A stretch of 64,000 bases of DNA. Source: Pararhizobium sp. GTDB taxonomy: Bacteria > Pseudomonadota > Alphaproteobacteria > Rhizobiales > Rhizobiaceae. The notes below the pieces were generated by a model, which searched no databases, was not told where the DNA came from, and saw only the letters and a list, made by a program, of their open reading frames with translations. Shown here piece after piece: positions 26,307 through 30,531 of this stretch. The stretch covers positions 1,240,001 through 1,304,000 of the forward strand of contig CP051237.1 of the NCBI GenBank assembly GCA_017794825.1. Reading direction: 5' to 3'. The position numbers and the translations under genes are program-made. The number at the start of each line of letters is the position of its first letter. Positions within the stretch are counted from its first letter, which is position 1.

Positions 26307-27527
26307 ATGCAGACTTTCACACTCGGCGTACTGCTTTTCACAATCATCGTGCTTGCGCTTGTCACGATCATCATGCTGGCGCGGTCGAGGCTTGTGTCCA
26401 CCGGCAACGTCAACATCACGATCAACCACGAAAAGACGATCTCGGTTCCGGCCGGCGGCAAGCTCCTGCAGACGCTGTCCGCCGAGAAACTCTTCGTGCC
26501 GTCGGCCTGCGGCGGCGGCGGCACATGCGCGCAGTGCCGCGTGCGGGTGCTTTCCGGCGGCGGCTCCATCCTTCCGACCGAGGAAAGCCACATCACCAAG
26601 CGCGAAGCCGCGCATGGCGACCGGCTGTCCTGTCAGGTCTCGGTCAAGCAGGACATGGAAGTCGAAGTTCCCGAAGAGGTCTTCGGCGTCAAGAAATGGC
26701 AGTGCACGGTGCGCTCCAACGACAATGTGGCGACCTTCATCAAGGAACTTGTGCTGGAACTGCCGGAAGGCGAAAACGTGAATTTCCGGGCGGGCGGCTA
26801 CATCCAGATCGAGGCGCCCAAACACAAGCTCAGCTACAAGGAATTCGACGTCGGCGAGGAGTATCGCGGGGACTGGGACAAGTTCAATCTGTGGCAATAT
26901 GAATCGGTCGTCGACGAGCCGGTCGAACGCGCATATTCCATGGCGAACTACCCCGAAGAAAAAGGCATTATCATGCTGAATGTCCGCATTGCTTCGCCCC
27001 CGCCCGGCTCCGAAGGCATTCCAGCAGGCCTGATGTCGTCATACATCTTCAATCTCAAGCCCGGCGACAAGGTAACGATCTCGGGCCCGTTCGGAGAGTT
27101 CTTCGCGCGCGACACCGACAAGGAAATGATCTTTGTGGGCGGCGGCGCCGGAATGGCGCCCATGCGCAGCCACATTTTCGACCAGCTCAAACGGCTGAAA
27201 TCGAAACGGAAAATCAGCTTCTGGTACGGCGCGCGCTCCAAGCGCGAGATGTTCTATGTGGAGGATTTCGACGGTCTGGCCGCCGAGAACGACAATTTCG
27301 AGTGGCACGTCGCGCTATCCGATGCGTTGCCCGACGACAACTGGACCGGTTACACCGGCTTCATCCATAACATCCTTCTGAAGGAATATCTGAAGGACCA
27401 CCCGGCGCCGGAGGATTGCGAGTATTATATGTGCGGCCCACCCATCATGAACCAGTCGGTCATCAACATGCTGCTGGAACTTGGCGTTGATCGCGAAGAC
27501 ATCATGCTCGACGATTTCGGCGGCTGA
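26307..27527 (+). CDS. nqrF: Na+-NQR subunit F, NADH-oxidising
   Basis: Protein of 406 residues with an N-terminal membrane anchor, a 2Fe-2S ferredoxin domain (C68, C74, C77, C109, matching C70/76/79/111 in Vibrio), an FAD site RAYSMANYP and an NADH site [12 protein letters not shown]. It accepts hydride from NADH at the entry of the complex. Last gene of the operon, followed by a hairpin at 27551. Confidence 0.95.
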
Positions 27528-27550
27528 CGACATCCACCGCAGGACATAAA

Positions 27551-27582
27551 AAAGAGCCGTCCGAAGCTTCAGACGGCTCTTT
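27551..27582 (-). terminator. Rho-independent terminator, best fit for the minus strand
   Basis: An 11-bp perfect stem, AAAGAGCCGTC / GACGGCTCTTT, closes a 10-base loop. Read on the minus strand it ends in six T's, a classic terminator for the small-ORF transcript. On the plus strand the tail is only TCTTTCC, but the hairpin probably also ends nqrF transcription. Confidence 0.85.
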
Positions 27583-27651
27583 CCAAGCTCTAAGGAGATG
27601 GGTCAGTTAGGGAAAGACCCAATCAGACGTCACAAGGACGAAGGGCTGCCT

Positions 27652-27708
27652 TCAGATCCCGTTACCTCCGATTTTCCTGACTTCAATCTCCAATATCGCT
27701 TTAGACAT
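27652..27708 (-). CDS. 18-residue peptide ORF with an extreme ribosome site
   Basis: ATG at 27708 to TGA, encoding MSKAILEIEVRKIGGNGI. It is preceded directly by a 17-base sequence fully complementary to the 3' tail of alphaproteobacterial 16S rRNA, with 7 bases between GGAGG and the ATG. The transcript ends at a strong terminator 70 bp downstream. A TTGACA lies about 60 bases upstream of the start, but a clear -10 is missing. Whether the product is a working peptide, a leader or only a ribosome-binding RNA is unknown. Confidence 0.5.
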   Translation of the reverse strand: MSKAILEIEVRKIGGNGI

Positions 27709-27725
27709 TGGATCACCTCCTTTCT
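27709..27725 (-). promoter_or_regulatory. Full-length Shine-Dalgarno sequence
   Basis: On the minus strand AGAAAGGAGGTGATCCA, the perfect complement of the last 17 bases of 16S rRNA (TGGATCACCTCCTTTCT), ends right at an ATG. Ordinary genes in this window pair over 4 to 8 bases. Confidence 0.75.
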
Positions 27726-27802
27726 GTTGTTGAAACCTGAGTCCCAAGTTGGCGTCGCGCCCTTCAACTGTCAAGAGGGTGCGCTGCAATATTGTCCGGG
27801 CT

Positions 27803-28473: not shown

Positions 28474-29415
28474 ATGGATTACAAGGATTACTACAAGGTT
28501 CTCGGCGTGGAGCGCGATGCGACGCAGGACGACATCAAGCGCGCTTACCGCAAGCTGGCCCGCAAGTACCATCCTGACGTCAACAAGGAGGCCGACGCCG
28601 AATCCAAGTTCAAGGACGCCGGCGAAGCCTACGAGGTTTTGAAGGACCCGGAAAAACGCGCCGCCTATGATCAACTCGGCGCCAACTGGCAGGCGGGTCA
28701 GGACTTCCGTCCGCCTCCGGGCTGGGACAGCGGATTTGAATTCTCCGGCGGCGGATACACCGAAGCCGACCAGGAGGCTTTCAGCGATTTCTTCGAGAGC
28801 CTCTTCGGCCAGGCCCGCTCGGGCCGGACGCGATATCAGGGAAGCCGCGAGTTCCATGCTCCGGGCCAGGATCATCACGCCCGAATAGAGATCGCGTTGA
28901 AGGACGCCTATGATGGCGCAACGCGGCAGATCGGTCTGCATGCGCCGCAGGTCGACCCGGCCGGACACGTCAGCGTCAAGGACCGGACGATCAAGGTCAC
29001 GATCCCCAAGGGCATACTTCCAGGTCAGCACATACGGTTGAGCGGACAAGGCACGCCTGGAATCGGCAAAGGCCGGGCCGGCGACCTGTATCTTGAAGTC
29101 GCGTTCAAGCCGGAGCGAGGATTCAGCATCGACGGACGCGATGTCTACATGGACCTGCCGATCACGCCCTGGGAGGCGGCGCTGGGCGGCAAGGTCAAGG
29201 CTCCGACGCCGTCAGGCTCCGTTGAACTGTCTATTCCCCGCAATGCGCGCTCGGGTCAGAAGCTTCGTCTTAAGGGGCGTGGATTGCCGGCAAAACCCGC
29301 CGGTGATCTTTATGCTGTCCTGCAGATTGTCACGCCGCCGGCCGACACGCCGGAAGCGCGCGAAATCTACGAGAAAATGGCGCGTGAACTCGACTTCAAT
29401 CCGCGTTCGAAATAG
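28474..29415 (+). CDS. cbpA: CbpA-like DnaJ-family co-chaperone
   Basis: Protein of 313 residues: J-domain (1-68) with HPD at 33-35, a G/F-rich linker, and two C-terminal beta-sandwich substrate domains (from about 130). The zinc-finger domain of DnaJ is absent, as in CbpA. The ATG at 28474 has GGAAGGAG upstream; a start at 28405 would add 23 non-family residues. It works with DnaK and in E. coli also binds DNA. Confidence 0.9.
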   Translation: MDYKDYYKVLGVERDATQDDIKRAYRKLARKYHPDVNKEADAESKFKDAGEAYEVLKDPEKRAAYDQLGANWQAGQDFRPPPGWDSGFEFSGGGYTEADQEAFSDFFESLFGQARSGRTRYQGSREFHAPGQDHHARIEIALKDAYDGATRQIGLHAPQVDPAGHVSVKDRTIKVTIPKGILPGQHIRLSGQGTPGIGKGRAGDLYLEVAFKPERGFSIDGRDVYMDLPITPWEAALGGKVKAPTPSGSVELSIPRNARSGQKLRLKGRGLPAKPAGDLYAVLQIVTPPADTPEAREIYEKMARELDFNPRSK

Positions 29416-29430
29416 GGAGGTGAACCGATC

Positions 29431-29736
29431 ATGACCAGGAAAACAGCGGAAGCCGTCCCGTCGGAACTGATCGAAGCGCTGACCCTGGCGGAACTGTGCA
29501 GGTCCTGCGGCGTTCGGGCGGACTGGATCATTGAACTCGTAGAGGAAGGCATTCTGGAGCCGACCGGTCGCGAGCCGTCCGCGTGGCGATTTACGGCGAC
29601 CAGCATTCGCAGGACACGCACAGCGTGGCGACTGCAGCACGACCTCGGGGTAAACCGGGCAGGCATCGCCGTCGCTCTCAATCTCATGGAAGAACGCGAG
29701 CAGCTCTATATCAGGCTCCAGCGCGGAGAGCGCTGA
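29431..29736 (+). CDS. cbpM: CbpM-like chaperone modulator
   Basis: Protein of 101 residues with a MerR-like helical fold (LTLAELCRSCGVRADWIIELVEEGILEP...). It starts 15 bp after cbpA, the position of cbpM, whose product inhibits CbpA by binding its J-domain. An AGGGAGGTG ribosome site precedes the ATG. Confidence 0.8.
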   Translation: MTRKTAEAVPSELIEALTLAELCRSCGVRADWIIELVEEGILEPTGREPSAWRFTATSIRRTRTAWRLQHDLGVNRAGIAVALNLMEEREQLYIRLQRGER

Positions 29737-29777: not shown

Positions 29778-30137
29778 TCAGGCTGCGGTCTCGATGTCGA
29801 ATTCGACATGAATGCGATCATAGGGAAAGATGACCCCGTCGGCCGTCTTTTCTATCACTCCGTTCCTGGTAAGCATCTCAAGATCACCATGAACATTCTT
29901 GACGTCCCGGCCGACCCGCCTGGCAACCTCCCGGACGCTCATTGCGCCTTGTCCGGTCATGGCGCGAATTATTTCAATCCGCATTGGAGAGAGCGTCTTG
30001 TGAAGCATCGCCCAGGAGGAAAAAGTGTAGGTGCTTTCAGGTTCGACGCGACTTCCCAGCGCCGACTGACTGGCTTTGTGTTCGACTTCGGCGATCATAT
30101 CTTGGTAGCTTTGAACTCTCACTCTAAGCGTTGTCAT
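29778..30137 (-). CDS. TumA-like antitoxin, HTH protein
   Basis: Protein of 119 residues with a winged helix-turn-helix in the second half (MSVREVARRVGRDVKNVHGDLEMLTRNGVIEK). The ATG at 30137 overlaps the toxin gene by 14 bp and has AAGGATGG upstream. The toxin-first order, sizes and HTH agree with TumE/TumA pairs. It should bind the toxin and repress the shared promoter. Confidence 0.75.
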   Translation of the reverse strand: MTTLRVRVQSYQDMIAEVEHKASQSALGSRVEPESTYTFSSWAMLHKTLSPMRIEIIRAMTGQGAMSVREVARRVGRDVKNVHGDLEMLTRNGVIEKTADGVIFPYDRIHVEFDIETAA

Positions 30138-30414
30138 TGATCCATCCTTTAATGTCTGCATCGAAGTCCAGCAGAAGCTTTCGGATATTCTCGAATGCAT
30201 AAGGGATCTCGCGGTCGCCGATATGCTTGTGATCGCCTTTGCCCGCTTCGTTGTCATAGCGCATAACGCAGTGACCATTCACCACGAAAGCCAGCCGGTA
30301 TTTGAAGTCATAGTCACTCCCACGCAACGGCGCCGGCACCCGCCAGATCACAAGGTCGGCGAAACTCCCGTCTGCCACTTGCCGTCTGTCCCTTAGAATC
30401 TGCACCGCTCTCAC
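30124..30414 (-). CDS. TumE-like toxin (DUF6516)
   Basis: Protein of 96 residues from the GTG at 30414: ILRDRRQVADGSFADLVIWRVP, then KYRLAFVVNGHCVMRYDNEAGKGDHKH, the conserved block of the TumE family, whose aspartate, glutamate and histidines may form a nuclease site. The frame also opens at a TTG at 30459, giving 111 residues, but the family motif fits the shorter form. Toxin identity is by motif memory only. Confidence 0.75.
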   Translation of the reverse strand: MRAVQILRDRRQVADGSFADLVIWRVPAPLRGSDYDFKYRLAFVVNGHCVMRYDNEAGKGDHKHIGDREIPYAFENIRKLLLDFDADIKGWINDNA

Positions 30415-30451
30415 GTTGGCAACAATACCAACAGTCGCCCTTGTTGGCAAC
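30415..30451 (-). promoter_or_regulatory. Two palindromic direct repeats before the toxin gene
   Basis: GTTGGCAAC occurs at 30415-30423 and 30443-30451, 28 bp apart. Each is an inverted repeat GTTG-G-CAAC. Position and symmetry suggest operators for the antitoxin, with the inner copy touching the GTG start. Confidence 0.55.
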
Positions 30452-30531
30452 CCAACCAACGCAGCTGCAGCGTTATTGATTGCCGGCGACTGTACGAGCG
30501 AATTCTGCGTGCAGTCATCCTTACCGAAACT

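Follow-up and report, generated by a model that had tools for sequence, protein, structure and literature searches.

A diverged relative of the CC2171 small RNA in Pararhizobium combines a leader complementary to the whole 16S rRNA tail with an 18-codon open reading frame

The window, by which we mean the whole stretch of 64,000 nucleotides of Pararhizobium sp. DNA that we analyzed, contains on its minus strand a putative small RNA gene that is unusual in anatomy and related to a known RNA family. We identified it as a diverged relative of the catalogued sRNA CC2171 (Rfam RF01867), though not a member of that family by the Rfam criterion. A family filed as non-coding carries a conserved ribosome start with complementarity to the whole 16S rRNA tail; its frame is open without clear constraint on the peptide, and one large clade adds a built-in anti-Shine-Dalgarno (anti-SD) sequence that is predicted to be able to close the RNA. 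We discuss the possibility that the RNA is a ribosome-gated switch.

Anatomy and surroundings of the RNA gene

The unit comprises a promoter-like box, a leader, a short ORF, an inverted repeat, about 70 nt of further sequence and a terminator (Table 1). The leader (27725-27708, AGAAAGGAGGTGATCCAA) is exactly complementary to TTGGATCACCTCCTTTCT, an alphaproteobacterial 16S end. Thus, the perfect anti-16S match of 17 bases claimed in the initial annotation was confirmed, and it reaches 18 nt if the first base of the ATG is included. TTGGATCACCTCCTTTCT is the end of a 53-nt 16S query, which we checked against plasmid rRNA records of alphaproteobacteria: 285 plasmid records match, and the 40 matches listed cover bases 1-53 at 98.1% identity with a single mismatch each, Rhizobium, Neorhizobium, Bosea, Paracoccus, Azospirillum and Sphingomonas being among them. 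No 16S gene was found in the host genome (no RF00177 match), and the tail used is the general alphaproteobacterial one. Every 10- to 18-mer of the leader has its sole site in the window at this position, and the 6.06-Mb genome has a single occurrence of the 12-mer AAAGGAGGTGAT; the match is therefore beyond chance.

Table 1 Features of the RNA gene in window coordinates
Feature	Position	Strand	Basis
Promoter-like box: TTGACA (27774-27769), 17 nt, CAACTT (27751-27746)	27746..27774	(-)	Read from sequence
Leader, 18-nt perfect complement of the alphaproteobacterial 16S 3' tail, holds the Shine-Dalgarno sequence	27708..27725	(-)	Sequence and conservation
Helix A, 5' arm AAGGAGGUG (Shine-Dalgarno)	27714..27722	(-)	Predicted fold and alignment
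Helix B, start-codon hairpin: UCCAAUGUC (27712-27704) with GAUAUUGGA (27697-27689)	27689..27712	(-)	Predicted fold
18-codon ORF, ATG...TGA, peptide MSKAILEIEVRKIGGNGI	27652..27708	(-)	Sequence reading
Helix C, 5' arm GUCAG, within the ORF	27677..27681	(-)	Alignment
Small inverted repeat GAAGGCAGCCCTTC, overlaps the stop codon	27640..27653	(-)	Read from sequence
Helix C, 3' arm CUGAC, directly before the internal anti-SD	27602..27606	(-)	Alignment and predicted fold
Helix A, 3' arm CAUCUCCUU, internal copy of the 16S anti-SD just before the terminator	27592..27600	(-)	Predicted fold and alignment
Intrinsic terminator, near-palindromic	27548..27580	(-)	16-bp stem in predicted fold, then T run

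The 18-codon ORF and the terminator 70 bp past its stop, both claimed earlier, also held up (27708-27652 and 27580-27548). The promoter was called by reading the sequence, and the terminator by reading together with the predicted fold; both are absent from the listing of a generic consensus scan. Transcription would start near 27739, judging from the position of the box. The terminator matches its own reverse complement at 94% over 32 nt and, lying between convergent genes, may be bidirectional and also serve the plus-strand gene. The sister genome G001 has the box TTGACT-N17-CACCTT with a spacer different from that of the window, and a similar pattern precedes 45 of 85 Rhodobacterales-type loci (reversed control, 0). 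Many Rhodobacterales-type copies (L181-L210 and L251-L300) have in the promoter spacer a near-palindrome like CACAAAATCTGTG, which is absent from the window and is possibly a regulator site. A loose RpoH-type pattern was found in 68 of 165 family upstream regions (6 when reversed, 0 as the reverse complement), yet in only 6 of 30 groES upstream regions; these mostly read CTTGAC-N-CCTATCT, and the window has TTGACA-N17-CAACTT.

The upstream neighbor is a gene for a DnaJ-type chaperone (28474-29415, plus strand), and the facing neighbor (26307-27527, plus strand) encodes Fer2, FAD-binding and NAD-binding domains; we take the latter to be nqrF-like, judging from its own neighbors. The chaperone gene and a following gene for a MerR_2 protein (PF13591) adjoin the RNA gene (28474-29736, plus strand), a pair that, in our view, recalls cbpA-cbpM. 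Farther out, at 29778-30459 on the minus strand, overlapping genes for an HVO_A0114-type HTH protein (PF25212) and a TumE-type toxin (PF20126) are likely a toxin-antitoxin pair.

The initial annotation had drawn on a DUF1127 gene upstream to liken the locus to stress-linked small RNA loci. This argument proved weak: with the DUF1127 Pfam model, the 54-aa ORF upstream reaches 12.4 bits (cut-off 23.3), it has no NCBIfam match, and a similar ORF occurs at 7 of 172 loci scanned, namely five copies of the window locus and two of G001. We therefore regard the reading as a DUF1127-linked locus as doubtful. We also surveyed neighbors across loci, counting ORFs of at least 60 aa, so that smaller ones are missed (315 neighbors, 164 upstream and 151 downstream). 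The upstream/downstream orientations relative to the RNA were opposite/opposite in 52 cases, same/opposite in 38, same/same in 33 and opposite/same in 27, and a Pfam scan of 120 hand-picked neighbor proteins out of the 315 revealed no family in more than 5. Since neighbor orientation varies, the RNA locus looks like a stand-alone unit.

Conservation and relation to CC2171

A nucleotide search with the 185-nt unit in 61 genomes (its own and 60 relatives) gave matches in 28, mostly over the leader, and in most of the relative loci that we fetched, a short ORF and a terminator-like hairpin come after the leader. Scanning named genomes with a leader pattern yielded at least 117 stretches, from Rhizobiales, Rhodobacteraceae, Sphingomonadales and Roseomonas-like bacteria among others. 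A stricter pattern (at most 3 mismatches) was found in 40 of 385 genomes of the class, with none for the reversed control. In a sample of the phylum (299 genomes, rows hand-counted by taxon), the leader was present in 51 of 86 alphaproteobacteria versus 3 of 213 others; the three outside matches have 3 mismatches each and a broken SD, and are chance-like. The order to which G214 belongs is here termed Rhodobacterales-like on account of the similarity of its copies to those of Aestuariivita (L084) and a Rhodobacteraceae MAG (L087). There, the leader is present in 164 of 195 genomes and in 75 of 87 genera, mostly in single copy (control in 3 genomes). Thus, the leader is strongly conserved, contrary to the lack of conservation of leader and ORF that the initial annotation had named as evidence against its reading. 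The search that it had suggested, for similar ORFs with the same leader in related genomes, found the leader and a short ORF; the peptide sequences differ between lineages.

The window copy is of the Rhodobacterales type, and other genera of the same family carry an MSSD... type; horizontal transfer and old paralogy are candidate origins of such a copy in the window's genus. Most Rhodobacterales-type loci have, by reading, a GGCA.CCC-like element at the site of the stop-codon repeat, and Rhizobiales copies have a hairpin with a CAG loop near the stop. One genome (G072) has two leader-pattern matches on one contig, one of them weaker, and at two loci (L149 and L153) the leader precedes longer, secreted-peptide-like ORFs of 59 and 56 codons.

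CC2171 is a Caulobacter sRNA, reportedly discovered by Landt et al. in 2008. The window copy scores 42.6 bits against RF01867 (E 1.3e-7 in 601 bases; gathering score 75) in a full-length match, model positions 1-159 of 159 with the leader included, while the whole window gives no match at Rfam's own cut-offs. Of 20 loci from related genomes including the window, 19 match the model at E <= 0.06 and 1 reaches 75 bits; the Rhodobacterales-like loci tested match in 14 of 14 cases at 26-48 bits, none at the cut-off. The model starts with the same leader (CAAC..GAAAGGAGGUGAUCC) and has the same start as the window RNA, and its printed consensus, joined by eye, contains a 22-codon ORF from GUG. CC2171 is nevertheless filed by Rfam as an sRNA gene, with the window RNA below its cut-off, and in the printed structure no pairing of the leader with a 3' anti-SD appears, unlike in the predicted fold of the window RNA. 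Identity with another sRNA, RcsR1 (RF02552), was rejected, as the match reaches 30.8 bits against a cut-off of 60 and covers the 3' part only.

A relative is transcribed: MH_s33 of Mesorhizobium huakuii, annotated as RF01867, gave a 215-nt sequenced product, and RNA-seq products are reported there for 34 of 35 predicted non-riboswitch sRNAs, MH_s6 being the exception (PMC5596092). MH_s33 is, however, of the Rhizobiales type, and the passages on it give no function. Passages of PMC11701678 are likewise relevant to CC2171. Our literature search found no function for the CC2171 family, and when exact leader strings were searched, the titles among the matches listed look like papers on 16S primers or sequences. 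The window RNA is unnamed in the relevant passages of PMC5521070, PMC2873474, PMC5082802, PMC10117765, PMC4117421, PMC6234868 and PMC7717549.

The short frame and the predicted fold

We analyzed the frame and the fold after removal of duplicates. The set of 80 representatives includes the first 30 Rhodobacterales loci and leaves out the later 50; one locus of another type (L295) was left out of the Rhodobacterales alignment. For the cluster tests, each 6-mer cluster was represented by a single sequence and leaders had to contain GAGGTG, so that the invariance of this core is partly due to selection of the sequences. Family sequences share kinship, and no p-value below is strict.

The ORF frame is kept open and short. 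Between +12 and +42, it contains a stop in 0 of 80 representatives, versus 18.1 expected from dinucleotide shuffles, and the corresponding counts for the other two frames are 29 and 11. In 78 of 80, the earliest stop codon lies at codon 14-36 (25.2 +- 3.8 expected), the start codons being ATG in 46, GTG in 33 and TTG in 1; in the Rhodobacterales set, 80 of 85 ORFs, including that of the window, have exactly 18 codons. By contrast, the peptide has no clear coding signature. With the exception of one set, pN/pS was 0.89-1.17 in the ORF frame and 0.68-1.09 in shifted frames; the exception, codons 2-12 of the Rhodobacterales set (0.69 versus 0.88 in shifted frames), is a slight hint of coding.

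A predicted fold may close this start. Complementarity of the downstream stretch to the leader, tested in 71 cluster representatives, gave a mean z of -1.16, with 16 representatives at p <= 0.05 (Fisher p 1.8e-13), versus a mean z of -0.07 in controls in which the stretch was reversed or reverse-complemented; in a first pass, 65 of 161 sequences had p <= 0.05. Most loci of the Rhodobacterales type carry the pre-terminator anti-SD [CT]CA[CT]CUCC, and the minimum free energy fold pairs the SD fully with it in 28 of 34 such sequences (hand count). The alignment of 82 Rhodobacterales-type sequences retains helix A in 594 of 656 cells, versus 314-479 for slid versions, although helix A slid by -3 still keeps 479 of 614; with a 5' arm that is nearly invariant, this helix has no room to covary. 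Helix B is kept in 472 of 492 cells over its 6 core pairs, with weak covariation (reached by 16 of 500 shuffles). Helix C pairs codons 10-11 with the CYGRC that immediately precedes the anti-SD; its pairing holds in 384 of 410 cells, and it has 11 compensatory cells versus 1.8 in shuffles, a number reached by 0 of 500. The window has A-U in helix C where most others have G-C, and AUG in helix B where others have GUG; both pairs are kept. For the Rhodobacterales type, computation thus yields a closed fold with compensatory changes.

In the predicted fold of the window RNA, the computed unpaired share of the SD and of the AUG is 0.2% each, and 0 of 300 shuffles reach values as low in both (singly, p 0.037 for the SD and 0.003 for the AUG; 300 shuffles). 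The computed duplex energies are -33.4 kcal/mol for the leader with the 16S tail versus -13.7 for the leader with the internal anti-SD, and the closed fold is at -77.4 versus -68.0 kcal/mol with the leader free, a gain of about 9. The leader duplex of the window alone was not unusual (p 0.24; z +0.29 with a cut at +110). Across all 80 representatives, SD accessibility showed no drop relative to shuffles (observed value under the shuffled mean in 37 of 80; Wilcoxon p 0.19), with 18 of 80 individually at p <= 0.05 for SD masking; we therefore do not regard SD masking as a family-wide rule at the level of folds. Support for the predicted closed fold is confined to the Rhodobacterales type and some others. 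Two loci, L285 (12 codons) and L297, are without the typical anti-SD segment. A clade comprising L203, L204 and L271 has lost the usual anti-SD and has CCTTTG(C/T)TC instead, which by eye could pair with the upstream part of the leader, a possible re-registered closure.

A candidate ribosome-gated switch and its alternatives

We propose, tentatively and with somewhat less than even confidence, that this stand-alone RNA of about 190 nt is a ribosome-gated switch. The proposal builds on the computed leader and its conservation, on the short open frame with no clear peptide constraint and on the closed fold computed for the Rhodobacterales type, and we infer that the RNA is transcribed in this organism, opened by the 30S subunit and productive of an output. 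In the closed state, the SD leader would be paired with the internal anti-SD just before the terminator (helix A), beside the long-range helix C, and the start codon would be held in hairpin B. The true 16S tail, which is complementary to the whole leader, would displace the internal copy; the long 16S complementarity would be the means of invading and opening the closed RNA. A ribosome would then translate the short ORF, whose peptide would be irrelevant, and melt B and C, leaving the internal anti-SD free. The likeliest output would be that the freed anti-SD acts on the Shine-Dalgarno sequences of other mRNAs, or that it sets the lifetime of the RNA, in proportion to free 30S subunits. A sacrificial ORF of this kind fits the narrow range of ORF lengths, the weak peptide constraint and the location of conserved codons inside helices. 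The further claim of an alphaproteobacteria-wide 30S sensor, in which the real 16S tail competes with the built-in copy over a meaningless ORF and the freed copy acts on mRNA SDs, is doubtful; if true, it would mean that ribosome supply feeds back on initiation globally. The switch itself, if real, would be a simple cellular readout of ribosome supply and would give the CC2171 family a testable function. The suggestion in the initial annotation of a ribosome- or anti-Shine-Dalgarno-binding regulator pointed in the right direction but missed the relation to CC2171, the internal anti-SD and the start-codon hairpin.

Several features of the RNA can be accounted for in other ways. The extreme and conserved complementarity to the whole tail, its pairing energy of -33.4 kcal/mol and the lack of another 12-nt match in the genome would suit a sponge, in which a maximal SD binds idle 30S subunits and lowers initiation elsewhere, the ORF releasing ribosomes and the anti-SD limiting the drain; this is unlikely, as a single-copy gene would need very high abundance and helices B and C would go unexplained. 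A micropeptide gene with a very strong start, the main idea of the initial annotation, could explain the conserved start codon, SD and open frame, the constant 18 codons in the Rhodobacterales set and the slight constraint on its codons 2-12. We found this idea unsupported and consider it rather improbable: pN/pS in the other groups is near 1, as in shifted frames, which is not what purifying selection on the peptide would leave, peptide sequences vary from lineage to lineage, some of the conserved residues are encoded within helices B and C, and the SD and AUG of the window are predicted to be masked.

The mRNA of the hok toxin, among others, folds its 5' end back onto its 3' end. A reading as a type I toxin-like mRNA that folds in this way therefore has a precedent, but the peptides here form no conserved family. 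Nor does the RNA fit well as a leader or attenuator of a neighboring gene, even though attenuation by a ribosome-sensing uORF is described for a Sinorhizobium meliloti DUF1127 gene in part of PMC12218461: the downstream neighbor is co-oriented in only 60 of 151 loci, no neighbor family is common to more than 5 of the 120 proteins scanned, and in the window a strong terminator and a convergent next gene take the place of a co-transcribed downstream gene. We rejected attenuation of a neighbor on the grounds of this variable orientation and the lack of a common neighbor family, and regard attenuator and toxin-like mRNA together as very improbable. The remaining alternative is a base-pairing sRNA whose pyrimidine-rich anti-SD covers the SDs of mRNAs, with the leader mainly a lock and translation incidental. 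The conserved [CT]CA[CT]CTCC segment argues for it, as do the alphaproteobacterial anti-SD sRNAs described in passages on Bartonella BbsR14 (PMC7717549) and AbcR1 (PMC6234868). In Caulobacter, moreover, the relevant passages of PMC4117421 report 133 ncRNAs, including 27 known earlier from tiling arrays, that are mostly intergenic and 'not translated' by ribosome profiling. We nevertheless judge this alternative unlikely too, since a start codon in place and a frame kept open and ended at 14-36 codons in 78 of 80 representatives would be needless for an incidental ORF. If CC2171 is among those untranslated ncRNAs, the RNA would be closed or unused in that condition, or its ORF untranslated; because of this report, we lowered our confidence in the ribosome-gated switch and in the alphaproteobacteria-wide 30S sensor to the levels stated above.

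Two published alphaproteobacterial RNAs come close to the window RNA. BbsR14 of Bartonella bacilliformis likewise carries anti-SD motifs, its two stem-loops containing TTCCTCCTAA; the passage that describes it (PMC7717549) mentions neither a complement of the 16S tail nor an ORF, unlike what we see here. The leader of S. meliloti duf1127_1, as presented in the relevant part of PMC12218461, has the uORF sORF26 at about 30 nt from the start of transcription; translation of this uORF enables the RNA structure to sense ribosome binding. The leader also yields a small uORF-containing RNA. It differs in that sORF26 encodes 29 aa with residues other than those of the window ORF, and in that the leader controls a downstream DUF1127 gene via premature, presumably Rho-dependent termination, whereas the window RNA has no co-oriented downstream gene and ends at a strong intrinsic terminator. 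By analogy, and as far as those passages of PMC12218461 go, the ribosome-sensing uORF of this S. meliloti DUF1127 gene is the nearest published logic to that of the window RNA.
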